The notes under the pieces: generated by a model
What the model was told of the DNA's origin: nothing
Database searches by the model: none
What the model saw: the letters and a program-made list of their open reading frames with translations, nothing else
Shown here: positions 3,924 to 39,763 of the stretch, piece by piece
Layout of the letters: the number at the start of each line of letters is the position of its first letter
Numbering within the stretch: position 1 is the first letter of the stretch
Made by a program: the position numbers and the translations under genes
Assembly (NCBI RefSeq): GCF_000702545.1
Contig: NZ_JNIO01000008.1
Coordinates: forward strand, 248,001-312,000
Source of the DNA: Selenomonas sp. AB3002
GTDB lineage: Bacteria; Bacillota; Negativicutes; Selenomonadales; Selenomonadaceae
Reading direction: 5' to 3'
DNA: 64,000 bases

Positions 3924-4883
3924 ATGCTCAATATCACCAAAGGCAAAATCCAACGTGCCCAGAAGGTGGTCATTTATGGAGCGGAGGGCATAGGAAAATC
4001 CAGTCTCGCAGCCTGCTTTCCGGATCCGCTCTTTATTGACACTGAGGGTGGCACCTCCCATATGGACGTGCGCCGCATAGAGCGACCGGAAAGCTGGGAG
4101 GAACTGTTGGCTATTGTGAAAGAAGTGGCTGTTACCCCAGATGTTTGTCAAACCCTTGTTTTGGACACGGCAGACTGGGCAGAGCAGCTTATCGTCAGCT
4201 ACCTCTGCGCTAAATACAAGCAGAATAGCATCGAATCCTTCGGCTACGGCAAGGGCTACATCTATCTGGGAGAGGAATTCACCAGACTGCTGGAGGCCTT
4301 TGACAAGGTACTGGAAGCCGGTATTCATGTGGTGATTACTGCCCATGCCAAGATGAGGAAGTTCGAGCAGCCAGACGAGATGGGTGCCTATGACCGCTGG
4401 GAAATGAAGCTCAGCAAGCAGGTGGCACCGTTGCTCAAGGAATGGTGTGACCTCCTGCTGTTCTGCAACTATCAGACTTATGTGGTCACCTCTGATACCA
4501 ATAAGCAGAAAGCCCAGGGCGGCAGGCGTGTCATGTACACAGCCCATCACCCTGCCTGGGATGCCAAGACCAGGGCAGACCTGCCTGAGGTATTGGAACT
4601 GGATTACAAGCATATTGCTCATCTGTTCACATCGCAGGAGAAGGGAAGGACTTCGGTCAAAAACGAGCCTGCTCCGGAGGAGTTGCCTTCAGCCGAGGTG
4701 CTGCGGAACCTGCTGAAAGAGAAGGGGGTGACGGAAGCAGAAGTCCGGCAGGTGGTAGCTGCCAGAGGGAAATACAGCGAGGATATGCCTATAGATGACT
4801 ATCCAGATGATTTTATCTTTGGCTATGTCATCAAATACTGGGACCAGATCATGGACATCATAGAAGAAAACCGCAAGGATTAA
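3924..4883 (+). CDS. Sak4-like / AAA_24 phage recombination ATPase
   Basis: This 319-residue protein is a RecA-like NTPase. Walker A is GAEGIGKSS (residues 19-27), an acidic residue of the DTEG motif lies at 39-42, and Walker B is TLVLDTAD ending near residue 84. Sak4-type proteins are short RecA-core ATPases that help anneal or pair single-stranded DNA during phage recombination. Here it lies between Gp157 and DUF669, the usual partners, which supports the assignment. The C-terminal 70 residues carry an EELPSAEVLRNLLKEKGV-type helical extension of unknown role. The ribosome site AAGGGGG precedes the ATG. Confidence 0.75.
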   Translation: MLNITKGKIQRAQKVVIYGAEGIGKSSLAACFPDPLFIDTEGGTSHMDVRRIERPESWEELLAIVKEVAVTPDVCQTLVLDTADWAEQLIVSYLCAKYKQNSIESFGYGKGYIYLGEEFTRLLEAFDKVLEAGIHVVITAHAKMRKFEQPDEMGAYDRWEMKLSKQVAPLLKEWCDLLLFCNYQTYVVTSDTNKQKAQGGRRVMYTAHHPAWDAKTRADLPEVLELDYKHIAHLFTSQEKGRTSVKNEPAPEELPSAEVLRNLLKEKGVTEAEVRQVVAARGKYSEDMPIDDYPDDFIFGYVIKYWDQIMDIIEENRKD

Positions 4884-9170: not shown

Positions 9171-9638
9171 ATGAGATTTTTCATGGACATAAATCCCCCA
9201 ACAGCTACAGCACAGGAAAAGGCAGTGCGCATGGTAAATGGCAGGCCTATATTTTACGAGCCTGCACCTCTAAAGAAAGCCAAAGCCACGTTGATGACAG
9301 GTCTAAGGAAATACGGCCCTAAGGAACCAATGCTGGGGGCCTTGGAACTTCGCACCACATGGCTGTTTCCCACAGGCAAATCCCACAAAGGCGGTGAGTG
9401 GCGCATCACTCGTCCGGACACAGACAACCTGCAGAAGATGCTGAAGGACTGCATGACGAAGTGTGGTTACTGGAAAGATGATGCCCAAGTGGTGCGTGAG
9501 GTGGTGGAAAAGCAGTGGGCCGAAGAACCTGGGATACACATTGAAATAAAGAGTCTGACATCCTATAGGGAACCTCAGATTAATGGTGAGGGATACAGCG
9601 ACCCAACGGCTATGGCAGCACTCAGAAACTGTCAGTGA
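9171..9638 (+). CDS. rusA: RusA-family Holliday junction resolvase
   Basis: This 155-residue protein carries the RusA signature RPDTDNLQKMLKDCM (near residues 83-97) followed by WKDDAQV, the acidic residues that coordinate catalytic metal. RusA enzymes resolve Holliday junctions in recombining phage DNA. The length is slightly above the usual 120-140 because of a C-terminal extension after residue 130. It follows the replication block and precedes two small regulatory proteins. The ribosome site AAAGGAAAGGCAGG lies about 10 bases upstream. Confidence 0.9.
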   Translation: MRFFMDINPPTATAQEKAVRMVNGRPIFYEPAPLKKAKATLMTGLRKYGPKEPMLGALELRTTWLFPTGKSHKGGEWRITRPDTDNLQKMLKDCMTKCGYWKDDAQVVREVVEKQWAEEPGIHIEIKSLTSYREPQINGEGYSDPTAMAALRNCQ

Positions 9639-10017: not shown

Positions 10018-10422
10018 ATGGATGTGAAGGAATTCCTTGAACGGGCACTTCATTTGGACGGGGCAATCGATGCTCAGGTGGCCGAATTGACTCACTTGCG
10101 GGAACTGTCCCTGAAAATTGGCACTAGCAAACTGGAGGAGCGTGTCACCCACAGTGTCACCAGGGAAGCACCCTTTGCCAAATGGGTGGAACGCATTGTG
10201 GATAAGGAGAGGGAAATCAACGCTGAGATTGACAAACTGGTGGATGTCAAGCTGGAAATCAGCGACTTCATTGATGGCATCGACAATCCTCAGTGGCAGA
10301 GTCTCTTGCGCCATCGGTATGTCCTCTGCAAGTCCTGGCCGGATGTTGCCGTGAATATGGGGTGCAGTCTTAGAACTGTTCATCGACTTCACAAAAAAAT
10401 CCTAAAAAATCTTGGGGAATGA
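10018..10422 (+). CDS. DUF1492 / ArpU-like late transcription regulator
   Basis: This 134-residue protein has a coiled N-terminal half and a C-terminal helix-turn-helix (SLLRHRYVLCKSWPDVAVNMGCSLRTVHRLHKKIL) like sigma region 4. DUF1492/ArpU-type proteins sit just upstream of the packaging genes in many Firmicutes phages and are thought to switch on late transcription. Here its stop codon overlaps a run of 10-bp repeats and a promoter, the likely target. The ATG at 10018 lies after AGGAGG. Confidence 0.7.
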   Translation: MDVKEFLERALHLDGAIDAQVAELTHLRELSLKIGTSKLEERVTHSVTREAPFAKWVERIVDKEREINAEIDKLVDVKLEISDFIDGIDNPQWQSLLRHRYVLCKSWPDVAVNMGCSLRTVHRLHKKILKNLGE

Positions 10423-11182: not shown

Positions 11183-11716
11183 ATGGCCAAAGATGGAACT
11201 AATCGCGGCGGCGCTAGGGCAGGTGCCGGACGCAAGAAGAAAGCCCTCACCGATAAAATCAGCGAAGGCAAGGCTGTCAAGGTGACGGTGCTGCCAACGG
11301 CCAACCTCCAGGGCATAGAAATGCCCGCTCCCAAGGAGTACATGAAGGCACCACAGAAGAACGGGCAGGAAAATTACGCCGTGGAGATTTACGAGGAAAC
11401 CTGGAATTGGCTGAACAAGAAGGGCTGTGCCGAGCTGGTGAGTCAGGAGCTCATTGAGCATTACGCCATGAGCGTATCTCGCTGGATTCAGTGCCAGGAC
11501 GCTATTTCCAACTACGGCTTCCTGGCCAAGCATCCAACCACCGGGGCTGCTATCGTATCGCCCTATGTTAACATCAGCCTGCAGTACATGAAGCAGGCCA
11601 ATCAGCTATGGTACCAGATTTACCAGGTGGTTAAGGAAAACTGCTCGGATGATTATCGTGGGGCCAACCCGCAGGAAGATGTGATGGAGCGTCTGCTTCG
11701 TTCAAGGAAGGGATAG
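11183..11716 (+). CDS. terS: Terminase small subunit, P27 family
   Basis: This 177-residue protein has the typical basic N-terminus GGARAGAGRKKK, a central helical part (WNWLNKKGCAELVSQELIEHYAMSVSRWIQC) and a C-terminal segment ending in MERLLRSRKG. These are P27-like small terminase features. It recognises the packaging site and recruits the large subunit. The large subunit is unusually far away (starting at 20130) because an enzyme block and a cassette array lie between them. The ribosome site GAAGGGAGGG is strong. Confidence 0.85.
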   Translation: MAKDGTNRGGARAGAGRKKKALTDKISEGKAVKVTVLPTANLQGIEMPAPKEYMKAPQKNGQENYAVEIYEETWNWLNKKGCAELVSQELIEHYAMSVSRWIQCQDAISNYGFLAKHPTTGAAIVSPYVNISLQYMKQANQLWYQIYQVVKENCSDDYRGANPQEDVMERLLRSRKG

Positions 11717-14912: not shown

Positions 14913-15002
14913 GTATACAACACAAAACCCTTGCTATTTCCTACGCTTAGAGCGAACATGTGACTACCAAAAGATAAGCATGAAACAAAGGAGGTCACGA
15001 AA
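14913..15002 (+). promoter_or_regulatory. Cassette leader 1
   Basis: The leader begins with GTATACAACA. A -35-like TTGCTA (14931-14936) is followed after exactly 19 bases by a weak ACATGT (14956). The last bases of that interval are AGAGCGA, as in the other leaders, and here CGCT/AGCG forms a short dyad. A strong site AAAGGAGG precedes the ATG. This is the most diverged of the functional-looking leaders. Confidence 0.6.
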
Positions 15003-16030: not shown

Positions 16031-16128
16031 GTATACACAAAGATTTACTTGATAATCACTCTCATTAGAGTGATATATACAGTAAGGAAAAACACAGCAA
16101 GCCGAAAGGCAGAAAGGGGATTTTCAAA
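16031..16128 (+). promoter_or_regulatory. Cassette leader 2, with perfect dyad between -35 and -10
   Basis: TTGATA (16049-16054) and TATATA (16074-16079) are 19 bases apart. The interval contains TCACTCT-CATT-AGAGTGA, a perfect 7-base inverted repeat. Long spacers with a dyad between the two boxes are the hallmark of promoters activated by MerR-type regulators. The leader starts with GTATACACA. Confidence 0.7.
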
Positions 16129-17088: not shown

Positions 17089-17175
17089 GGGCCACCGCCC
17101 CCCAGAACCCGCCGCAAGGCGGGCTTGGGGTGGTAGAAGGGATGTTCCTTCGGAAGCAGAAAGGACGGCAGAAAA
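17089..17175 (+). other. Stable hairpin between amidoligase and GGCT genes
   Basis: CCACC, CCCC and CCCGCC pair with GGCGGG, GGGG and GGTGG around a GCAA loop (about 17092-17134), with a smaller TTCC-TTCG-GGAA hairpin after it. There is no T-tract. It may stabilise the upstream transcript or lower expression of the downstream gene. Confidence 0.6.
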
Positions 17176-17634
17176 ATGAAAACGAAGATTTATATTGCCT
17201 ATGGAAGCAACATGGATTTAGGCCAGATGAAGTTCCGCTGCCCCGAGGCTACGCTGTTGGGGACGGGGCTGCTGGAGAGCTGGAGGCTGATGTTCAAGGG
17301 GAGCAAGACCGGGGCCTACGCCACCATCGAAAAGGAAAAAGGGCAGACGGTGCCGGTGCTCCTGTGGAGGATTACCGAGGAGGACGAGGCCAGCCTCGAC
17401 CACTACGAGGGCTTTCCAACCTTCTACTACAAGCGGGTCATTCAAGCCGTGAAAACGGACGAGCACGGCAACCGCTGTGGGCTGACCCGCGGGATGGCCT
17501 ACATCATGCACGAAGAACGCAAGCTGGGGATTCCCTCCAGCCATTACTTTGAAACGCTGGACAGAGCCTATCTGAAGTTCGGATTTGACGAAGAAATCCT
17601 CGGAGAAGCCTACGAATACAGCTGGCCGGATTGA
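17176..17634 (+). CDS. Gamma-glutamylcyclotransferase-like (AIG2/GGCT) protein
   Basis: This is a 152-residue protein. The N-terminal IAYGSNM (residues 7-13) is the glycine-rich substrate-binding loop of the GGCT fold. LDHYEGF supplies the conserved catalytic Glu (residue 78). GGCT enzymes cleave gamma-glutamyl-amine bonds by cyclisation to 5-oxoproline. Paired with an amidoligase that could build such bonds, it may edit or reverse a gamma-glutamyl modification; this is inference from the pairing. The start lies after AAAGGA. Confidence 0.85.
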   Translation: MKTKIYIAYGSNMDLGQMKFRCPEATLLGTGLLESWRLMFKGSKTGAYATIEKEKGQTVPVLLWRITEEDEASLDHYEGFPTFYYKRVIQAVKTDEHGNRCGLTRGMAYIMHEERKLGIPSSHYFETLDRAYLKFGFDEEILGEAYEYSWPD

Positions 17635-17640
17635 AGAAAA

Positions 17641-17743
17641 GTATACACAAAAATCCTACGAAAATCGCTTGCTATAAATCCCCTTTAGAGCGAATATACA
17701 CATACCGAAAGGGACAACCAGACAAGCGAAGGAGGAAACAAAA
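17641..17743 (+). promoter_or_regulatory. Cassette leader 3
   Basis: The leader has GTATACACA at its start, TTGCTA (17669-17674), a 19-base spacer ending in AGAGCGA, ATATAC (17694-17699), the CATACCGAAAGGGA segment and GAAGGAGGAAA before the ATG. Confidence 0.75.
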
Positions 17744-18007
17744 ATGACATGGAAACAGGTTACCAACATGGAGCACCTTGCAAAGGAAGCCTACGCAGGT
17801 GGAGGAGCAGTGCTAAAGTACAATTATAGGGTCCTGGCGGTCAGATTGGATAGATTCGGTTACCGAGCAGCGATTTACGAATTCGTTGAAACCCCGGAGG
17901 AAACCGGGCTGGCAGAAACTGAATGCAGACTTAACCTCACAGCGGTAGCACCGGAATACTTCGAGGACGGAGGCCATGCGATAGCTTGGTGCATCGAGCA
18001 CCTTTGA
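17744..18007 (+). CDS. Cassette gene, hypothetical 87-residue protein
   Basis: The protein of 87 residues has alternating short strands (VLKYNYRVLAVRLDRFGYRAAIYEFVE) suggesting a small beta-rich fold, ending in AIAWCIEHL. No family is recognised. It has its own leader and a hairpin terminator 17 bases after the stop, so it should be expressed as an independent unit. Confidence 0.65.
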   Translation: MTWKQVTNMEHLAKEAYAGGGAVLKYNYRVLAVRLDRFGYRAAIYEFVETPEETGLAETECRLNLTAVAPEYFEDGGHAIAWCIEHL

Positions 18008-18023
18008 GTAACAACCCAGCGAG

Positions 18024-18047
18024 AACAGCCCTTCGGGGCTGTTTTTT
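18024..18047 (+). terminator. Cassette terminator (AACAGCCC-TTCG-GGGCTGTT, T-tract)
   Basis: An 8-bp GC-rich stem with a stable TTCG loop is followed by TTTTTT, 11 bases before the next GTATACACA box. Similar CAGCCC-TTCG-GGGCTG hairpins end two other cassettes (18993 and 19352). Confidence 0.85.
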
Positions 18048-18057
18048 CCTAGCAAAT

Positions 18058-18162
18058 GTATACACAGATAAATGAGATAAATGACTTGCTATTCCTCCCA
18101 TTAAGAGCGAATATACACATACCAAAAGGGAACAACCTGAACAAGCAAAGGAGGAAAACAAG
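18058..18162 (+). promoter_or_regulatory. Cassette leader 4
   Basis: The leader starts with GTATACACA, followed by TTGCTA, a 19-base spacer ending in AGAGCGA, then ATATAC and AAAGGAGGAAAACAAG before the ATG. Its first 60 bases are nearly identical to those of the leader at 21732 (GATAAATGACTTGCTAT...), so those two share a closer origin. Confidence 0.75.
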
Positions 18163-18600
18163 ATGACAAAAGCATTTGCAGAGGACTTCAAAAAGGCACG
18201 GGAACTGCGTAAGGCCATCGATGCGGCTGAAACCCCGGAAGAGGAGCAGGCGGCAAGGGAAGCCTACAGGGAATTCAGAGTAGAGCTTGAAGACAAGGGA
18301 ATAGCATACAACAGATTCTACAGAGCCTACGCCGAAGCACAGAACCGGAGCAACGCCTGCATCGACTTCAGCGAGTGTATTTGGGAAAAGGAAATCCCCC
18401 AGCTGGTGACAGACCTCAAAGCCTACGGGATTGAAGAATTCACCCTTTCCTCAACTTGGAGCGGCTCGGTTAAGGTTGCCTGGGGCTTCCAGCAGAACGG
18501 CTGCATCCTCGAAGGGATGGAGGAGATCAGCGGAACTAGCCGGGACTTCAAAACTGGGGATTACGAAAAGGTTCCGGCTTTCAAATTCAAGGTGAGCTGA
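18163..18600 (+). CDS. Cassette gene, DUF7698-like protein
   Basis: This is a 145-residue protein. The N-terminal third is a charged helix (EDFKKARELRKAIDAAETPEEEQAAREAY). The C-terminal half, with IPQLVTDLKAYGIEEFTLSSTWSGSVKVAWGFQ and a closing KVPAFKFKV, resembles small proteins of unknown function on Clostridia/Negativicutes plasmids and phages (I associate it with DUF7698). No catalytic residues are evident. It carries its own leader and terminator. Confidence 0.6.
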   Translation: MTKAFAEDFKKARELRKAIDAAETPEEEQAAREAYREFRVELEDKGIAYNRFYRAYAEAQNRSNACIDFSECIWEKEIPQLVTDLKAYGIEEFTLSSTWSGSVKVAWGFQQNGCILEGMEEISGTSRDFKTGDYEKVPAFKFKVS

Positions 18601-18621
18601 AGCCAAGGGGAAACGCCAAGG

Positions 18622-18641
18622 GGAGCCGCAAGGCTCCTTTT
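18622..18641 (+). terminator. Cassette terminator (GGAGCC-GCAA-GGCTCC)
   Basis: A 6-bp stem with a GCAA tetraloop is followed by TTTT. The GTATACACA of the next leader starts 4 bases later. The same stem-loop ends the cassette at 19674. Confidence 0.8.
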
Positions 18642-18644
18642 GAA

Positions 18645-18749
18645 GTATACACAGAATTCCTCAGAAAACCGCTTGCTATAATTTGCTTTTAGAGCGAACA
18701 TACACATACCGAAAGGGAATCACTTAGACAAGCGAAGGAGGATGCAAGC
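18645..18749 (+). promoter_or_regulatory. Cassette leader 5
   Basis: The leader has the same plan: GTATACACAGAATT, CGCTTGCTA, a 19-base spacer ending in AGAGCGA, ACATAC, CATACCGAAAGGGA, ACAAGCGAAGGAGG. The -10 is a base weaker (ACATAC) than in the others. Confidence 0.75.
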
Positions 18750-18974
18750 ATGTGGAGCAAAGGCAAAATCGAGATTGAAGGCACCGAGGTTCAGTATTGG
18801 GTAAAGCACTACGAGGAAGGTTCGGAATTCGGAATTGAAGGCGGAAGGATTTCCAAGCTGGAATGCCGGGCAAACGGAAAGACAATTCTTCATTACGAGA
18901 GGGGCTGGGACATGGAACCGGAAACGGAAATTGGCTACCAAGCCTATGCAATCCTCACTGAAAAATTCAACTGA
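18750..18974 (+). CDS. Cassette gene, DUF7678-like protein
   Basis: This 74-residue protein has the sequence core VQYWVKHYEEGSEFGIEGG, then RISKLECRANGKTILHYERGWD and a final YAILTEKFN. The pattern fits DUF7678-type small proteins found on conjugative elements and phages of related bacteria. It is probably a small beta-sheet protein. Function is unknown. It has its own leader and terminator. Confidence 0.65.
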   Translation: MWSKGKIEIEGTEVQYWVKHYEEGSEFGIEGGRISKLECRANGKTILHYERGWDMEPETEIGYQAYAILTEKFN

Positions 18975-18992
18975 AAACGGCATCAAAGTCAG

Positions 18993-19013
18993 CAGCCCTT
19001 CGGGGCTGTTTCT
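18993..19013 (+). terminator. Cassette terminator (CAGCCC-TTCG-GGGCTG)
   Basis: The stem-loop is the same as at 18024, followed by TTTCTTG. The next leader begins at 19021. Confidence 0.8.
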
Positions 19014-19020
19014 TGTCAAA

Positions 19021-19126
19021 GTATACACAGAAATTCTCCGTAATTCGCTTGATATAATTCGTGTTTAGAGCGAATATACACATACCGAAAGGGAACCACC
19101 TAGACAAGCGAAGGAGGAAAAACAAG
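19021..19126 (+). promoter_or_regulatory. Cassette leader 6
   Basis: GTATACACAGAAATTC, TTGATA, a 19-base spacer ending in AGAGCGA, ATATAC, CATACCGAAAGGGA and AAGCGAAGGAGG appear in the usual order. ATTCG/CGAAT gives a partial dyad across the spacer. Confidence 0.75.
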
Positions 19127-19333
19127 ATGAAAAAGCAAGAAGAATTGACCCGCAAGGAACTGAACGCCCTTTGGAAGATTGCCCAGAAAACAATCTACGG
19201 ATTCGAAGGAAGAAAGCCCTTCGAACGGCGGTGGAACGATGAAGAGGATTTCCCCGACATCGCGATTTGGAGCCTTGAGGCAGCCATGACCGAGGCCTAC
19301 CGCCTGGGCCAGAAGAATGCCACAAAGGCATGA
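19127..19333 (+). CDS. Cassette gene, DUF6900-like protein
   Basis: This 68-residue protein starts at ATG 19127, 8 bases after GGAGG. The sequence LTRKELNALWKIAQKTIYGFE, then FPDIAIWSLEAAMTEAYRLGQ, matches the DUF6900 pattern of small mobile-element proteins. It is helical and of unknown function. It has its own leader and terminator. Confidence 0.65.
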   Translation: MKKQEELTRKELNALWKIAQKTIYGFEGRKPFERRWNDEEDFPDIAIWSLEAAMTEAYRLGQKNATKA

Positions 19334-19351
19334 AAGAAGCCAACAATCGGG

Positions 19352-19375
19352 ACAGCCCTTCGGGGCTGTTTCTCG
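19352..19375 (+). terminator. Cassette terminator (ACAGCCC-TTCG-GGGCTGT)
   Basis: A 7-bp stem with TTCG loop is followed by TTTCTCG, 12 bases before the next leader. Confidence 0.8.
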
Positions 19376-19380
19376 TTGAA

Positions 19381-19483
19381 GTATACACAGAAATTCTCCG
19401 AAAATCGCTTGCTATAAATCGCGTTTAGAGCGAATATACACATACCGAAAGAGAACACCGAACAAGCGAAGGAGGAAGACAAA
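19381..19483 (+). promoter_or_regulatory. Cassette leader 7
   Basis: GTATACACAGAAATTC, CGCTTGCTA, a 19-base spacer (with TCGC/GCGA dyad) ending in AGAGCGA, ATATAC, CATACCGAAAG and AAGCGAAGGAGG occur in order before the ATG. Confidence 0.75.
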
Positions 19484-19666
19484 ATGAAGACGATTTACAA
19501 ACTCGATGGAAAGAAAATCAGCAAGAAGGCCCTGCTCGAGAAAATGGGAGCCGAACGGGTCAAGAAGATGACCGAAGAGGCTTGGGAAACCACCATGGAA
19601 GACCCCTGGATTAGCAATGACTTCTGGATTGGGTCTGGGATGCTGAACATTTCCTTCGAGGGATAA
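19484..19666 (+). CDS. Cassette gene, 60-residue protein
   Basis: This small protein begins MKTIYKLDGKKISKKALLEKMG, with a short strand and helix, then a W-rich end (DPWISNDFWIGSGMLNISFEG). Similar miniproteins occur on mobile elements of related bacteria, but no function is known. It has a complete leader and a terminator directly after the gene. Confidence 0.6.
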   Translation: MKTIYKLDGKKISKKALLEKMGAERVKKMTEEAWETTMEDPWISNDFWIGSGMLNISFEG

Positions 19667-19673
19667 GGAGAGG

Positions 19674-19695
19674 GGAGCCGCAAGGCTCCTTTTTT
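19674..19695 (+). terminator. Cassette terminator (GGAGCC-GCAA-GGCTCC, T6)
   Basis: A 6-bp stem with GCAA loop and a strong T-tract. The duplicate of the terL start follows 9 bases later instead of a GTATACACA box. Confidence 0.85.
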
Positions 19696-19703
19696 CGTGG
19701 GGG

Positions 19704-19734
19704 ATTGATTGCGAAAACTTACCGGCTACAAGCC
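19704..19734 (+). repeat. 31-base duplicate of the terL start (copy 1)
   Basis: Positions 19704-19734 are identical to 20125-20155, which hold the TTG start and first codons of terL. In this copy the frame ends 6 bases later where a GTATACACA leader begins (19739). It is a truncated relic left by insertion or duplication of the cassette between the two copies. Confidence 0.9.
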
Positions 19735-19738
19735 TAAT

Positions 19739-19840
19739 GTATACACAGAAATTTTCCGAAAATCGCTTGATATTATTCGTGTTTAGAGCGAATATACACA
19801 TACCGAAAGGAAAACTGGACAAGCGAAGGAGGAAAAACAA
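19739..19840 (+). promoter_or_regulatory. Cassette leader 8
   Basis: GTATACACAGAAATTT, CGCTTGATA, a 19-base spacer ending in AGAGCGA, ATATAC, CATACCGAAAGGAAA and AAGCGAAGGAGG precede the ATG. The leader starts directly after the truncated terL copy. Confidence 0.75.
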
Positions 19841-20050
19841 ATGAGAACTCAGGAAGAAATTAAAAGAATGACTTACAAAGAATTGGAAAATGCAGTGATA
19901 AAGGCCGATTGCTATATCCGGACAATGAATGACAGAGGAAAGAAACAGCAGCTGATTAATGAAGCACACGATATGAGAATGGAAATGGACAGGCGCTGGG
20001 GAAAATGGGAGAAACGGTGCTTGGAAGAATTAGGCCAAAAGAAGCATTAA
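19841..20050 (+). CDS. Cassette gene, 69-residue helical protein
   Basis: The protein is highly charged and predicted entirely helical or coiled (EEIKRMTYKELENAVIKADCYI..., EMDRRWGKWEKRCLEELGQ). No family is recognised. It is flanked by the two copies of the terL start. Confidence 0.6.
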   Translation: MRTQEEIKRMTYKELENAVIKADCYIRTMNDRGKKQQLINEAHDMRMEMDRRWGKWEKRCLEELGQKKH

Positions 20051-20060
20051 GAGAATAGGG

Positions 20061-20085
20061 CGGGCGGTTACGACCGCCTGCTTTT
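20061..20085 (+). terminator. Cassette terminator (GGCGGT-TACG-ACCGCC)
   Basis: A 6-8-bp stem with a TACG loop is followed by CTTTT. It lies between the last cassette and terL. Confidence 0.75.
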
Positions 20086-20086
20086 G

Positions 20087-20129
20087 AATATACAACAACA
20101 TTTCCTCGATTTCCTATGGGGGTGATTGA
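20087..20129 (+). promoter_or_regulatory. Degenerate leader upstream of terL
   Basis: AATATACAACAACATTTCCTCGATTTCCTATGGGGG resembles the start of leader 1 (TATACAACA..., TATTTCCTA) but lacks the AGAGYGA box and a -10. It ends in the GGGGGTGA ribosome site of terL. I read it as an eroded copy of the same element. Confidence 0.4.
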
Positions 20130-21731
20130 TTGCGAAAACTTACCGGCTACAAGCCGACTGAATTCATGGACAAGGATTCCCACTACGACAAGGGGGCGGC
20201 AGATTTTGCTGTGGCCTTCATCGAGAGCCTGTGTCACACCAAAGGCACCTGGGCGGGCAAGCCCTTCGAGCTCATTGACTGGCAGGAACGAATCATCCGT
20301 GACCTGTTCGGCATCCTAAAGAAAAACGGCTATAGGCAGTTCAACACCGCCTACGTGGAGATTCCGAAGAAACAAGGCAAGAGCGAACTGGCGGCGGCTG
20401 TGGCGCTCCTGCTTTGCTGTGGCGATGGGGAGGAGAGGGCGGAGGTTTACGGCTGTGCCGCCGACCGCCAGCAGGCCTCCATTGTTTTCGAGGTGGCTGC
20501 AGACATGGTGCGGATGTGCCCGGCCCTCAACAAGCGGGTGAAAATTCTCGCCTCCCAGAAACGGATGGTTTTCCAGCCAACCAACAGCTTCTACCAGGTG
20601 CTCTCTGCCGAGGCTTACTCGAAGCACGGCTTCAACATACACGGCGTGGTTTTTGACGAACTGCACACCCAGCCCAATCGGAAACTTTTCGATGTCATGA
20701 CCAAAGGCTCCGGCGATGCCCGCATGCAGCCGCTGTATTTCCTCATCACCACGGCAGGGACGGATACCCAGTCCATATGCTACGAGACGCACCAGAAGGC
20801 CTTGGACATCCTGGAGGGCAGGAAAATCGACCACACTTTCTACCCAGTGATTTACGGAGCCAAAGAAGACGAAGATTGGACCAGCCCGGAGGTTTGGAAG
20901 AAAGCCAATCCCTCCTTGGGCATCACCGTGGGGCTGGACAAGGTGCAGGCTGCTTGTGACTCTGCCAAGCAGAATCCGGGGGAGGAGAACTCCTTCCGAC
21001 AGCTCCGCCTCAACCAATGGGTGAAGCAGTCCATCCGCTGGATGCCGATGCACAAATGGGATGCCTGCGCCTTTCCTGTTGACGAGGATGAACTGGAAGG
21101 GCGCATCTGCTACGGCGGGCTTGACCTTTCCAGCACCACGGACATCACGGCCTTTGTTCTGGTTTTCCCGCCGGTCGATGAAGCCGATAAATACATGGTG
21201 CTTCCTTACTTCTGGATTCCAGAGGACAATGTAGACCTTCGAGTGCGTCGCGATCATGTGCCCTACGATGTTTGGCAGCGGCAAGGTAAGCTGGAAACCA
21301 CGGAAGGCAATGTGGTGCATTATGGCTTCATCGAGAAATTCATCGAGCGGTTGGGGGAGAGGTTCAATATCCGTGAGATTGCTTTTGACCGCTGGGGGGC
21401 GGTGCAGATGGTGCAGAACCTTGAGGGCATGGGCTTCACTGTGGTGCCCTTTGGGCAGGGCTTTGCCAGTATGAGCCCACCCACCAAAGAACTGATGAAG
21501 TTGGTGCTGGAGGAGCGGATTGCCCACGGCGGCCATCCAGTGCTGCGGTGGAACATGGATAACATCTTCATTCGCACCGACCCAGCAGGGAACATCAAGG
21601 CAGACAAGGCAAAAAGCACGGAGAAGATTGATGGGGCGATTGCCCTCATCATGGCCCTTGACAGGGCAGTGCGTTGTGGCAATGTTTCCACCGAAAGCGT
21701 CTACGACAGTCGAGGGATTTTCTGGCTTTAA
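20130..21731 (+). CDS. terL: Terminase large subunit
   Basis: This 533-residue protein has the HK97/P27-partner TerL layout. The ATPase domain has an adapted Walker A (VEIPKKQGKSELAAAVALLL, near residues 71-90) and Walker B (VVFDELH, near 173-179). The C-terminal RNase H-like nuclease has YGGLDLSSTTDITAF (near 328) and EIAFDRWGA (near 415), supplying metal-binding Asp residues. It packages DNA into proheads. The start is TTG 20130 after GGGGGTGA. Its first 26 bases and some upstream bases are duplicated at 19704. Confidence 0.92.
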   Translation: MRKLTGYKPTEFMDKDSHYDKGAADFAVAFIESLCHTKGTWAGKPFELIDWQERIIRDLFGILKKNGYRQFNTAYVEIPKKQGKSELAAAVALLLCCGDGEERAEVYGCAADRQQASIVFEVAADMVRMCPALNKRVKILASQKRMVFQPTNSFYQVLSAEAYSKHGFNIHGVVFDELHTQPNRKLFDVMTKGSGDARMQPLYFLITTAGTDTQSICYETHQKALDILEGRKIDHTFYPVIYGAKEDEDWTSPEVWKKANPSLGITVGLDKVQAACDSAKQNPGEENSFRQLRLNQWVKQSIRWMPMHKWDACAFPVDEDELEGRICYGGLDLSSTTDITAFVLVFPPVDEADKYMVLPYFWIPEDNVDLRVRRDHVPYDVWQRQGKLETTEGNVVHYGFIEKFIERLGERFNIREIAFDRWGAVQMVQNLEGMGFTVVPFGQGFASMSPPTKELMKLVLEERIAHGGHPVLRWNMDNIFIRTDPAGNIKADKAKSTEKIDGAIALIMALDRAVRCGNVSTESVYDSRGIFWL

Positions 21732-21839
21732 GTATACACAGATAATTGAGATAAATGACTTGCTATACCTCCCATAAAGAGCGAATATACACATACCGAA
21801 AGGGAAAACACCTGGACAACCGAAAGGGAGGCAAACAAA
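21732..21839 (+). promoter_or_regulatory. Cassette leader 9, immediately after the terL stop codon
   Basis: GTATACACA starts at the base after the TAA of terL. TTGCTA, a 19-base spacer ending in AGAGCGA, ATATAC, CATACCGAAAGGGA and a GGGAGG ribosome site follow. Its first part matches leader 4 closely. Confidence 0.75.
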
Positions 21840-22166
21840 ATGACCAAGCAGGAAATCGCCGAGATTATCGAGAGCAAGGGCAACGAGTACGGATTCAAGA
21901 TGCGGGACATGGGAGTGGCTTGGACGAGCGAACAGACCAGCGAAAGCTACATCCGCATCGAGCTTTTCAAGGAAACCGACTACGACAAAAGCAATTGGGA
22001 AGACCGCAGGGTAGCGATAAACCTCAAGGTCACCGGATGCATTTGCCGGATGGGCGACCGCAGGGGGGCGGAGGAACTTCAGAAAATCGCTGAGGAGATT
22101 GCAAGGGGCACCAAGCTGGTAGCCGAACTTGAAAATATGAACCTTTCCTACATCGAAATCTACTGA
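21840..22166 (+). CDS. Cassette gene between terL and portal
   Basis: This is a 108-residue protein. It has a helix (EIAEIIESKGNEYGF), then strands with ESYIRIELFKETDYD and RVAINLKVTGCICRMG, and a C-terminal helix. No family is recognised. Its location between terL and portal, normally adjacent genes, and its private leader and terminator mark it as an inserted unit. Confidence 0.65.
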   Translation: MTKQEIAEIIESKGNEYGFKMRDMGVAWTSEQTSESYIRIELFKETDYDKSNWEDRRVAINLKVTGCICRMGDRRGAEELQKIAEEIARGTKLVAELENMNLSYIEIY

Positions 22167-22186
22167 AGGAAAACTAAACAAGCAGG

Positions 22187-22212
22187 GCACCGCTCGAAAG
22201 GGCGGTGCTTTT
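22187..22212 (+). terminator. Cassette terminator (GCACCGC / GCGGTGC)
   Basis: GCACCGC (22187-22193) pairs with GCGGTGC (22202-22208) and is followed by TTTT. The portal gene starts 23 bases later. Confidence 0.8.
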
Positions 22213-22234
22213 GAGTTGAAGGGAGTGACCATCC

Positions 22235-23572
22235 ATGAGCATTTTATCCTGGCTTTTCCATTCTAGGGACAAGCCCACCAACAGTACAGCTGGCAGTGCA
22301 TACAGCTTCTTTTTTGGCGGCTCCACGGCGGGCAAGGCGGTCAGTGAGAAATCTGCCATGCAGATGACTGCCGTGTATGCCTGTGTCCGCATCCTGGCAG
22401 AGTCCATCGCCGGACTGCCACTGCATCTGTTCCACTATGATGGAAACGGGGGCAAGGCGCGGGCTACAGACCACCCGCTGTATTTCCTCTTGCATGATGA
22501 GCCAAATCCAGAGATGACCTCATTTGCCTTTCGGGAAACCCTGATGACGCACCTGCTCCTTTGGGGTAATGCCTTTGCCCAGGTTATCCGCAATGGCAAG
22601 GGGGCGGTGGTTGCACTGTATCCGCTTATGCCTAACCGCATGACGGTGGACAGGGACAAGGCGGGGCGGATTTACTACGAGTACCTGCGTATGGACGATG
22701 AAGCCCCTACCATGAAGGGGACTACCGTGAGGCTGAATCCGAGCGAAGTATTGCATGTTCCAGGGCTGGGCTTTGATGGCATTGTGGGGTATTCGCCCAT
22801 CGCCATGGCCAAAAATGCCATTGGCATGGCCATGGCCTGCGAGGATTATGGAGCCTCCTTCTTTGCCAACGGTGCCACCCCGAGTGCTGTTCTGGAATAC
22901 CCAGGTACCCTCAAAGATCCAGCCAAGGTAAGAGAAAGCTGGGAACTGGCTCACGGGGGGCGGAACTCCCACCGCATAGGAGTGCTGGAGGAGGGCATGA
23001 AATACACGCCTATTGGCATCCCGCCTGAACAGGCTCAGTTCTTGGAAACGCGGAAGTTCCAAATCAATGAGATTGCCCGCATCTTTCGTGTTCCACCCCA
23101 CATGATTGGCGACCTTGAGAAAGCCACCTTCTCAAACATAGAGCACCAGTCCCTTGAGTACGTGAAATACACCCTGGCACCGTGGATTTGCAGGTTCGAG
23201 CAGTCCATGGCTAGGGTTCTGCTGCTGCCAGATGAGAAGAAGGACTACACCATTAAGTTCAATGTGGACGGTCTGCTCCGTGGCGATTACCAAAGCCGTA
23301 TGCAAGGATATGCCATTGGCAGACAGAACGGCTGGATGTCAGCCAACGACATCCGACAGCTTGAGAGTCTTGACCTTATCCCAGAGGAGAAAGGCGGGGA
23401 CTTGTACTTGGTAAATGGTAACATGGCCAAACTGGAAGATGCGGGGGCGGTTTATTCCAGCAAGGGAAAGGAGAAAAACACAGATGGCGAAGACGAAGAA
23501 ATTCTGGGCGTGGAAAAAGAACAGCCCGGAAACGAAGGAACGAACGTTGGTGCTAAACGGCGTCATCGCTGA
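22235..23572 (+). CDS. Portal protein, HK97 family
   Basis: This 445-residue protein matches the HK97-type portal: SAMQMTAVYACVRILAESIAGLPLHLF near the N-terminus, HVPGLGFDGIVGYSPI in the middle, and FRVPPHMIGDLEKATFSNIEHQSLEYVKYTL. Twelve subunits form the DNA channel at the capsid vertex. The C-terminus is acidic and overlaps the protease gene by 89 bases. The ATG follows GAAGGGAGTG. Confidence 0.92.
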   Translation: MSILSWLFHSRDKPTNSTAGSAYSFFFGGSTAGKAVSEKSAMQMTAVYACVRILAESIAGLPLHLFHYDGNGGKARATDHPLYFLLHDEPNPEMTSFAFRETLMTHLLLWGNAFAQVIRNGKGAVVALYPLMPNRMTVDRDKAGRIYYEYLRMDDEAPTMKGTTVRLNPSEVLHVPGLGFDGIVGYSPIAMAKNAIGMAMACEDYGASFFANGATPSAVLEYPGTLKDPAKVRESWELAHGGRNSHRIGVLEEGMKYTPIGIPPEQAQFLETRKFQINEIARIFRVPPHMIGDLEKATFSNIEHQSLEYVKYTLAPWICRFEQSMARVLLLPDEKKDYTIKFNVDGLLRGDYQSRMQGYAIGRQNGWMSANDIRQLESLDLIPEEKGGDLYLVNGNMAKLEDAGAVYSSKGKEKNTDGEDEEILGVEKEQPGNEGTNVGAKRRHR

Positions 23573-36944: not shown

Positions 36945-38177
36945 ATGAAGAAGATAGAGCGGATAGAGCCAAAGGTACCGCAGATTAAGCGGAAGAAGCT
37001 GGTAGCTGCCTATGCACGAGTATCTGCTGAATCAGATAGACTGAACCATTCCTTGTCTGCACAGGTCAGTTATTACAGCCAGCTTATACAGAAGAATCCT
37101 GAATGGGAGTACGCCGGGGTGTACGCTGACAGCTTCATCTCCGGCACCAGCATTGACAAGCGTGATGAGTTTCAGCGCCTGCTTGCCGACTGCGAGGTGG
37201 GTAAGGTGGAAATCATCCTTACAAAATCCATCAGCCGCTTTGCCAGAAACACGGTTGACCTGCTTTCCACAGTGCGACATCTTAAGGTCCTTGGCGTAGA
37301 AGTGCGGTTTGAGAAGGAGCATATAAGCTCTTTGACCTCATCCGGCGAGGTCATGCTGTCCATTTTGGCAAGTTTCGCACAGGAGGAGAGTGTCAATAAC
37401 TCGGAAAATGTGAAGTGGGCTAAAAGAAAGCGGTTTGAACAAGGACTGCCCCATGCACGTTTCAATCTCTACGGATACAAATGGGAAGGGGACCAGCTGC
37501 TGGTGGTTCCAGAAGAAGCCGCTGTGGTGAAGCGTATATTTCAAGAGGTTCTTGTTGGCAAATCCGTGGCAGAGATTGGCAAGGAACTCTCTGATGACGG
37601 AATAACCACCAGAGAAGGATACCGTTGGAGCGCTCCCAGCCTTAGGTATATTCTCCAAAACGTCATCTACACAGGCAATTTGCTCTTGCAAAAATACTAT
37701 GTAGAGAATCCCCTTACACACAAGGTCAGGAAGAACAATGGGGAGTGCAACCGGTACTGGGTAGAAAATACCCATGAAGCCCTTGTGGACAAAGAAACAT
37801 TTGACCTTGTGCAAAGAGAACTTGGCAGACGGAGAGGGAGGAGTTCTACCCACAAATCCTGCTTCACTATGAAAATTAAGTGTCCGTTCTGCGGGCATAA
37901 CTATGTTTACCATACCTACAGAAGCACAAAGAACGAATATTGGGTACACCAGCCCAAGAAAAGAAAATGCCCCGTCAGATGGATTATCAATCAGGCTGAA
38001 ATAAAAAGGATATGTGCTGAAGTGCTGGGGGGAGCAGAGTTTGATGAGGAAACGTTTCTTAAGCAGGTGGATTTCATCAACGTGCCCCAGCGGGAGAGGT
38101 TGGAATTCCACATCAAGGATGGACAAGTCCTTACAAAATCATGCCGAAACCCAGGACGGAAGGAAAAGAGAGGGTGA
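36945..38177 (+). CDS. Large serine recombinase 1
   Basis: This is a 410-residue protein. The resolvase domain shows YARVSAESDRLNHSLSAQ (nucleophilic Ser in VSAES) and SRFARNTVDLLSTVRHL. It is followed by a recombinase domain (YKWEGDQLLVVPEEAAVVKRIFQ) and a single short zinc ribbon (CPFCGH...CPVRW). At 410 residues it is shorter than most phage serine integrases. The next gene overlaps by one base, so both recombinases are made together. Confidence 0.88.
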   Translation: MKKIERIEPKVPQIKRKKLVAAYARVSAESDRLNHSLSAQVSYYSQLIQKNPEWEYAGVYADSFISGTSIDKRDEFQRLLADCEVGKVEIILTKSISRFARNTVDLLSTVRHLKVLGVEVRFEKEHISSLTSSGEVMLSILASFAQEESVNNSENVKWAKRKRFEQGLPHARFNLYGYKWEGDQLLVVPEEAAVVKRIFQEVLVGKSVAEIGKELSDDGITTREGYRWSAPSLRYILQNVIYTGNLLLQKYYVENPLTHKVRKNNGECNRYWVENTHEALVDKETFDLVQRELGRRRGRSSTHKSCFTMKIKCPFCGHNYVYHTYRSTKNEYWVHQPKKRKCPVRWIINQAEIKRICAEVLGGAEFDEETFLKQVDFINVPQRERLEFHIKDGQVLTKSCRNPGRKEKRG

Positions 38178-39763
38178 TGATGGTGGCAAGAAAAGTAACG
38201 ACCATACCTGCGACAATCAACAAATTCACCTCTGCGCCCATAGCAAGCCATGCAAAGCGGAAGGTAGCAGGTTATGCTCGTGTCAGCACGGATAATGAAG
38301 ACCAGATATCCAGCTATGCCGCACAGGTGGATTACTACACTAAATATATCAGGGAGCGAGAGGACTGGGAGTTTGTTGGGATATACACGGACGAAGGCGT
38401 GACAGGCACCTCCACCAAGAAGCGTGAGGGATTCACCCAGATGATTAAGGATGCCCTGGCTGGCAAAATCCAGCTGATAATCACAAAATCTGTGTCTCGT
38501 TTTGCCAGAAACACCGTGGACTGCCTTACAACGATACGAAAGCTGAAGGCAAGTGGGGTGGAGGTGTACTTTGAAAAAGAGGGAATCTGGACGCTTGATT
38601 CAGCCGGGGAACTGCTCATCACTGTCCTCTCATCCATAAGTCAGGAAGAGGCACGGAGCATATCCGAAAATACAACTTGGGGGCATCGGAAACGTTTTGC
38701 CGATGGCAAGGTAAGCATCCCATTCAAGCATTTCCTTGGCTATGACAGGGGGGAAGATGGCAATCTGGTCATTAATCCAGAGCAGGCCAAGACGGTCAAG
38801 TTCATATATAAGCTGTTTCTTACAGGATTGTCCTACCAGGCTATAGCGAAGATATTGATGGATAAAGGCATAAAATCGCCAGGGGGGAAGGAAATCTGGC
38901 ATCCAGGTAGTGTGAAGCATATCCTAACCAGTGAAAAAATGAAAGGAGATGCACTGCTTCAGAAGAGTTTTACCATAGACTTCCTTGCCAAGAAAAGAAA
39001 AAGGAATGAGGGAGAAATTCCCCAGTATTACGTGACGGGCAACCATGAGCCTATCATACCGCCAGCTACCTTTGACCTTGTACAGGCAGAGATTGAGCGG
39101 CGTAAGAGTAGCAGGAGATATAGCGGCGTGACCATCTTCTCCAACAGAATCAAATGCGGCGAGTGTGGGCATTGGTTTGGTACCAAGGTTTGGCACAGCA
39201 CAGATAAGTATCGGAAGGTGGTCTATCAGTGCAACCACAAGTTTGACGGCGGAAAGAAATGCTCCACGCCACACTTGGTTGAGGCAGAAATCAAGGAGGC
39301 CTTCATCAAGGCGGTGAATCGGTTGCTGAAGGGCAAGGATGATATACTGGGCAACCTCCGTCTGGTTCAGGAGCAGATTTGCGATACGTCAGAATTGGAA
39401 GGTGAAAGCCAGAATCTGATGGAGGAACTCCAGATGCTCTCCGATATGATGCAAAAAATCATCAGCGAAAATGCCCGCATTGTCCAGGATCAAACGGACT
39501 ACCAAAAGCGGTACAATGAACTGGTCAGCCGCTACGACGCCGTCAAAGCCAGACACACAGCAGCGGAAAAATCCATCAAGGAACGGCATGCCAAGGCAGA
39601 ACGGCTGGATGCTTTTGCAAAAGCTCTGGAATCGCAGTCAAAACGGCTGACTGAGTTTGATGAAGGTCTATGGGGAACGCTGGTAGACTTCATGACTGTT
39701 TATAACAAGGACGATATCAGCGTGACTTTCAAGGATGGGGCAGAAATACATATAGGTGGATGA
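38177..39763 (+). CDS. Large serine recombinase 2
   Basis: This is a 528-residue protein. YARVSTDNEDQISSYAAQ carries the catalytic Ser. SRFARNTVDCLTTIRKL, a recombinase domain, a zinc ribbon (CGECGHWFGTKVW) and a long coiled coil (about residues 395-480) follow, as in integrases of the phiC31/TndX type. ATG 38177 overlaps the previous stop. It is the better candidate for the integrase; the shorter partner may be a second subunit or directionality factor. Confidence 0.9.
   Translation: MMVARKVTTIPATINKFTSAPIASHAKRKVAGYARVSTDNEDQISSYAAQVDYYTKYIREREDWEFVGIYTDEGVTGTSTKKREGFTQMIKDALAGKIQLIITKSVSRFARNTVDCLTTIRKLKASGVEVYFEKEGIWTLDSAGELLITVLSSISQEEARSISENTTWGHRKRFADGKVSIPFKHFLGYDRGEDGNLVINPEQAKTVKFIYKLFLTGLSYQAIAKILMDKGIKSPGGKEIWHPGSVKHILTSEKMKGDALLQKSFTIDFLAKKRKRNEGEIPQYYVTGNHEPIIPPATFDLVQAEIERRKSSRRYSGVTIFSNRIKCGECGHWFGTKVWHSTDKYRKVVYQCNHKFDGGKKCSTPHLVEAEIKEAFIKAVNRLLKGKDDILGNLRLVQEQICDTSELEGESQNLMEELQMLSDMMQKIISENARIVQDQTDYQKRYNELVSRYDAVKARHTAAEKSIKERHAKAERLDAFAKALESQSKRLTEFDEGLWGTLVDFMTVYNKDDISVTFKDGAEIHIGG

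Follow-up and report, generated by a model that had tools for sequence, protein, structure and literature searches.

The start of the terminase large subunit gene, terL, is present twice in a prophage contained in the DNA analysed here (the window, 64,000 nucleotides of Selenomonas sp. AB3002), as an exact direct repeat of 32 bp in which positions 19703-19734 equal positions 20124-20155. We consider this repeat to be, probably, the scar of one insertion, in which a phage carrying a small gene of family F5 directly before terL took up a further cassette, B, plus a fresh terL start. The scar records a process that is already known, in a well-preserved example; less expected by specialists may be the wide, conserved leader that B shares with its neighbours. 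By the time a phage mosaic is examined, the events that formed it usually lie far back, whereas here a recent addition has both of its edges readable beside the empty site of a close relative. The case illustrates that a cassette can be inserted at the beginning of an essential gene and leave that gene intact, since it brings a new start with it. The shared leader, in turn, offers a test of why small genes cluster by terL in Firmicutes phages: shared control, a shared recombination site, or both. The features at the junction are the following.

19703..19734, + strand: left copy of the repeat, a vestigial terL start with the end of the ribosome site, TTG at 19709 and the first codons (repeat comparison, alignment with G003)
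19735..19840, + strand: TAAT junction and leader of cassette B (GTATACACA from 19739, TTGATA at 19767, GAATATACACA, GGAGG)
19841..20050, + strand: inserted ORF B, family F23, 69 aa, GC 40% (ORF list, composition, homologue search)
20057..20084, + strand: terminator-like hairpin of cassette B (z -5.3 for a stretch chosen by eye; the consensus scan does not list it)
20085..20118, + strand: tail from the hairpin to the terL ribosome site
20124..20155, + strand: right copy of the repeat, the working terL start (repeat comparison)
20130..21731, + strand: terL, terminase large subunit, 533 aa (intact ORF; terminase ATPase and nuclease domains)

An initial annotation of this DNA had described a 31-base duplicate of the terL start; the duplicate is indeed exact, and its true length is one base more. 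The sequence of the repeat was found in none of 100 dinucleotide shuffles of the window, even when 3 mismatches were allowed. The second copy had been taken for the working terL, in agreement with the TTG at 20130 that opens an intact ORF of 533 aa with terminase domains, and the first had been described as truncated where a leader begins: it ends within codon 9 and is followed by TAAT and then by the GTATACACA leader. The start codon of this stub opens a frame of 25 codons that reaches into the leader. Its ribosome-site stretch is 2 bases short, GGGGG-ATTGATTG as against GGGGGTGATTGATTG in the right copy and in the closest relative, G003, a loss confined to the left copy as expected of a stub; the difference falls just outside the exact repeat. 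The only other record found with both copies is the IMG/VR contig 2562617013 (L107/L121), which is 100% identical over 6,207 bp and therefore probably represents the same strain as the window and not an independent case. In viral_contigs, the fused junction of terL start and leader, searched as one pattern, occurs only in this contig.

Relatives of the prophage display the site without the insert. In seven records (G003, L105, L009, L010, L011, L102 and L125) F5 stands directly before terL with no B between them, and in the available stretch of each of them the first bases of terL are present in one copy. G003, which belongs to the same genus, is 93.9% identical to the window up to 19745 and again 92.2% identical from 20117. 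The nearest terL genes, in five named genomes (four Selenomonas and one uncultured Veillonellaceae), are 92-96% identical, from which the prophage would be one of Selenomonas. L110, L122 and G004 are one record, as the alignment shows for L122 and G004, and were counted once. A scan covered 190 terL starts (151 distinct, of which 145 have 500 nt or more of upstream sequence). Only one distinct start, that of the window with its own copies, has its first 24 nt of terL repeated exactly. In 187 terL starts, a search with exact 16-mers from the ribosome site and first 40 codons likewise detected no two-copy relative lacking the cassette. The alignment of cassette-free relatives, which the initial annotation had proposed as a check, thus gave one terL-start copy each, with the junction where it had been placed; a cassette-free relative with both copies, named there as the finding that would speak against an insertion, is absent from the 151 distinct starts. 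Its proposal that the cassette entered together with a new terL start is supported by the two copies in the window and the empty site in the seven relatives.

Cassette B is one small unit made of a leader, an ORF of 69 aa and a terminator-like hairpin. The GC content of the ORF is 40%, a value taken from one ORF of 210 nt, as compared with 47.6-52.4% in three neighbouring cassette ORFs and 56% in terL. No confident family was assigned to it in Pfam or PHROGs, and its relatives in 380 genomes of the class, besides its own, amount to a 37% match in G314 (E 3e-7) and a marginal one in G066. The G314 relative sits between an F3-like gene and an amidoligase gene of a related phage, where the two leaders precede these two genes and not, directly, the B relative; its position indicates that B-type genes occur in such arrays, though elsewhere within them. 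The searches for a donor with B adjoining terL gave only the identical L107 in viral_contigs, and nothing in the phages collection or in five other genomes of the genus. A 25-base string spanning the end of the tail between the B hairpin and terL was also found, in viral_contigs, only in L107. Sliding identity along terL, computed with L125 left out since its column was out of register, has a mosaic appearance with no clear donor tract. The upstream half of the B leader is closest to the window's own F4 (0.89) and F5 (0.87) leaders.

The prophage encodes a Gam-like protein, a Sak4-like annealing protein, a helicase, a primase and RusA, followed by a DUF1492 regulator (10018-10422), an HNH gene, terS and, later, terL. 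A stretch of 8.4 kb separates terS from terL and contains other genes, among them those for a methylase, an amidase, an amidoligase and a gamma-glutamyl cyclotransferase as well as a row of small genes. Counting B, six cassettes are lined up upstream of terL and a seventh, F1, follows downstream; all seven share the leader.

3924..4883, + strand: Sak4-like single-strand annealing protein (phrog_124, 2e-66)
9171..9638, + strand: RusA-like Holliday junction resolvase (phrog_140, 1e-37)
11183..11716, + strand: terS (Terminase_4, domain match)
17641..18044, + strand: cassette F8 (leader, Nmad4 ORF 17744-18007, hairpin)
18058..18642, + strand: cassette F6 (leader, DUF7698 ORF 18163-18600, hairpin)
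18645..19010, + strand: cassette F2 (leader, DUF7678 ORF 18750-18974, hairpin)
19021..19372, + strand: cassette F4 (leader, DUF6900-like ORF 19127-19333, hairpin)
19381..19698, + strand: cassette F5 (leader, 60-aa ORF 19484-19666, hairpin), adjoining terL in seven relatives
21732..22211, + strand: cassette F1, downstream of terL (leader right after the terL stop, ORF 21840-22166, hairpin)

A consensus terminator scan listed none of the seven cassette hairpins on the + strand and returned 5 sites where 7.2 were expected. In two relatives (L206:14846-15342, which is G003, and L012:5594-6080) terL is separated from the F1 leader by a gene of ~490 nt on the reverse strand, whose cysteine pattern we take to be of the C-GCA type; this gene is missing from the window, where the F1 leader directly follows the terL stop. 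Near the end of the prophage, at 36945-39763, two adjacent ORFs resemble large serine recombinases, the first on the basis of a domain scan and the second as judged by sequence.

In the event that we favour, a phage with the order F5-terL would have taken up B plus a new terL ribosome site and first codons, the source being presumably a related phage with B directly before terL. At the right-hand join the two genomes would have recombined within the shared terL start, whereas at the left-hand join codon 9 of the old terL would have been connected to the outer edge of the B leader with no visible homology. The old start would have become the stub, and terL would now be read from the second one. 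The two copies, the empty site in relatives, the composition of the insert and the re-pairing of leaders and genes elsewhere in such arrays are observed directly; the direction of the event, its donor and a role for the phage's own annealing recombinase are inferred. The Sak4 and RusA proteins of the phage would fit a relaxed exchange. Phage Rad52-like recombinases are described as carrying out relaxed homologous recombination, with exchange at short or diverged homologies, and illegitimate joins as much rarer than homologous ones (PMC3945230). Relaxed recombination of that kind would account for the right-hand join and for the leader exchanges reported below; the recombinase here, however, is Sak4-like (phrog_124), a term that does not occur in the main text of PMC3945230, and the left-hand join would be of the illegitimate type that is rare according to the same source.

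Against insertion in a single step stand the left join without homology, the presence of the scar in one strain, and the outcome of the donor searches. Had B come in by two steps, through a tandem duplication of F5 and the terL start and then the replacement of the second F5 by B, the leader providing homology for the left-hand join and the terL start for the right-hand one, the same end product would be reached by homologous joins only, the first duplication excepted. The exchange within a leader that is resolved in one pair of relatives (L013/L106) and the resemblance of the B and F5 leaders in their upstream halves are in line with such a route, which we nevertheless hold to be rather unlikely: it needs two events and an intermediate, F5-stub-F5-terL, that is unseen among the 151 distinct terL starts, and among the tabulated cassettes only B was found to have TAAT before its leader. 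As another origin of the stub, an internally deleted tandem terL was weighed (the F1 leader, too, follows a TAA) and discarded, as the B leader is closest to those of F4 and F5.

The argument that B was gained rather than lost is one of parsimony, given that the empty site would also arise by deletion between the 32-bp copies. If the two-copy state were ancestral, such deletions would have left exactly the single-copy site of the relatives; yet B is missing at the junction in 7 of 7 F5-terL records and hardly found elsewhere, repeated exact loss is less economical than a single gain, and the two copies still match at 32 of 32 positions, which makes ancestral duplication very unlikely. An insertion missing in relatives and flanked by a direct repeat is also what a transposing cassette with a target-site duplication of ~31 bp would produce. 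This origin appears most improbable, since cassette B has neither a transposase nor terminal inverted repeats, consisting of one 69-aa ORF without a recombinase match and being bracketed by no inverted pair of at least 12 nt. Similar duplications were not found at the flanks of F1 and F3, which share 8 and 7 bases, respectively, both lengths lying within the range of the shuffles (for F1, mean 5.7 and maximum 11); judging by F1, duplication is no general property of the cassettes. The repeat, moreover, coincides precisely with the ribosome site and the beginning of an essential gene, which selection for a regenerated terL predicts. An assembly artefact, suggested by the occurrence in one strain only, is barely conceivable given a 3.67-Mb genome in 8 contigs, copies that differ by 2 bases just beyond the exact repeat, and an IMG/VR copy identical over 6,207 bp, even if the latter may derive from the same assembly.

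The leader of B is one of seven in the window, the others preceding F8, F6, F2, F4, F5 and F1. Two diverged, weaker leaders lie at 14913, before the F3 gene, and at 16031, before the amidoligase gene; in the second of these, the TTGATA and TATATA boxes have a 7-bp inverted repeat between them. The leader is ~100 nt in length and extends to the ribosome site. Its core consists of CTTGMTAT, ~8 variable bases, TTTAGAGYGAATAT and then ACCGAAAGG, and comprises the hexamer TTGMTA plus a weak -10-like one. A model of the seven leaders gave 246 matches in 109 of 160 terL loci (the best 80 from each of two scans), on the terL strand only, and a model refined in one round from matches in the same 160 loci that it was later used to search gave 355 matches in 129 of them, all on the terL strand; neither model had any match in the same loci when reversed. 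A loosely defined ribosome-site motif and a start codon follow 348 of the 355 matches, a count made without a control. The spacing between TTGMTA and AGAG is fixed in 439 of 519 leader matches, with 62 lacking the anchor and 18 spaced differently, and the logo was anchored by a pattern forcing TTG and AGAG, which accounts for part of the conservation seen at the anchored letters.

Most of the examined phages with this terminase have the leader at the head of genes around terL. All nine matches in the window's own genome fall within this prophage; a second TerL_nuclease gene of the same genome (G000:C8:1008993-1009871) has no leader match nearby. Leader matches were detected in 34 genomes of a class sample of 150 that includes the genome under study. 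Within 15 kb of a TerL_nuclease match lay 102 of the 128 class matches, every one on its strand and 96 of them upstream; the other 26 weaken a strict tie to terL. On contig 1 of G103, at 1209539-1211769 and 1282735-1283369, five leader matches occur in a genome without a TerL_nuclease match, hence the leader is not strictly tied to this terminase.

Judging from its conservation and position, we read the leader as a putative phage promoter combined with a ribosome site. A canonical promoter finds no support in a sigma-70 consensus scan, which called none of the seven leaders (1 site in 17100-22300, against 3.4 expected). Nor do we propose a structured RNA element: RNAalifold predicted 0 pairs on 70 leaders, and Rfam 15, searched over positions 10000-32000 with E values up to 1, gave no match at any leader, its one match lying elsewhere. 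The CC-GAAA-GG stretch after the -10-like box is a putative, unproven small hairpin. No published description of the leader was recognised in a narrow search of open-access text. We tentatively raise the possibility that the leader serves Firmicutes phages as a family-wide control element, so far undescribed, and at the same time as a recombination handle, being exchanged between unrelated small genes. Were this the case, the leader would let phages plug in genes that come under phage control at once, and the terL scar would capture one cassette in place at the outer edge of a leader array.

The same small-gene families occur in relatives with differences in order and number, and the cassette adjoining terL is F5, F2, F4 or F8 in the nearer relatives and B in the window. 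According to the initial annotation, gene order grew one cassette at a time at a hot spot beside terL. This holds only in part: the terL-adjoining cassette does differ between relatives, but cassettes also exchange leaders, and thus the array has been shuffled as well as extended; as for the hot spot, the scar itself, known from one strain, does not reveal one.

Besides B, leader and gene were found re-paired in three places, in one of which the exchange is resolved inside the leader. In this case, the F8 cassette of L013, the ORF and the downstream half of the leader are 99.6% and 92% identical to those of F8 in L106 while the upstream half is 96% identical to that of L106's F6 leader, as if F6 had been removed from L013 by a crossover between two leaders. 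L110 is situated at the end of a contig and was therefore compared by hand. Its F4 ORF, 95% identical to that of G003, stands behind a leader whose upstream half is 100% identical to that of the F6 leader of G003 and L105; the downstream half, 86% like F4 and 85% like F6, does not place the exchange point. In L127 the F4 gene bears the whole leader that heads F9 in L128 (upstream half 0.98, downstream half 0.97), which places this exchange near the start codon and not inside the leader. Upstream of terL, F4 and F9 stand in opposite order in L127 and L128, whose F9 ORFs are 62% identical. An automatic re-pairing scan flagged 3 of 91 cassettes, two of them being the same pair, L013/L106.

Among 105 pairs with ORFs at least 88% identical, 16 (F1, F2, F3 and F8) have leaders whose downstream halves reach at least 88% identity while the upstream halves do not exceed 70%; many of these pairs are not independent, and faster drift of the upstream half could also have produced them. 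Duplicate loci (L092, L010, L091, L096 and L122) and ORFs below 40 aa were left out of the cassette comparisons, and leaders too near a contig end were also omitted from the re-pairing and half-leader comparisons; the two lowest upstream-half identities in the cassette table are those of L110, where the contig end lowers them. Two F9 genes, L016:811 and L127:4024, are 96% identical in the ORF and 95% in the downstream half of the leader, and their sequences part immediately beyond the GTATACAC edge of the leader, a boundary of exchange resembling the one on the left of B. Family F11 (L106, L124) stems from a misread start, and its L106 case is an F2 cassette. At L009:3319 and L010:3319, an F2 cassette retains its leader, with a reading frame that stops at codon 2.

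Several known arrangements resemble this array in part. SAS elements are short and located at the start codon, whereas the leader described here is ~100 nt long, keeps a fixed TTGMTA-AGAG spacing and reaches the ribosome site. In cluster K mycobacteriophages, SAS and ESAS are described as a conserved repeat before many genes of one phage, to which ESAS add 17-bp inverted repeats, and have been suggested to be regulatory and a possible target of homologous recombination (PMC3203893). The promoter-stem-loop (PeSL) cassettes of T4-type phages (Arbiol 2010 and Comeau 2014, as cited in PMC4503421) are similar in that, as far as described there, a repeated intergenic stem-loop accompanies a promoter-like leader and genes and units are re-paired between relatives. 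In the window, a predicted hairpin followed by a predicted leader separates F8, F6, F2, F4 and F5, and a crossover within the motif that re-paired genes is seen in one case, the F8 leader of L013/L106. The motif here is a different one, however, and the units lie around terL in temperate Firmicutes phages; in place of a T4-type myovirus with an early promoter we find a prophage with a TerL_nuclease-type terminase and a serine recombinase.

Phage morons are independent transcription units inserted between phage genes. Cassette B resembles them in being a small gene, preceded by a putative leader and followed by a terminator-like hairpin, whose insertion left the next gene unbroken; it is absent from otherwise collinear relatives, and its base composition is unlike that of its neighbours (GC 0.40 against 0.476-0.524, and 0.56 in terL). 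It differs from morons in that six units with a common leader precede terL and one follows it, and in that the gene entered by B received a further copy of its own start along with it.
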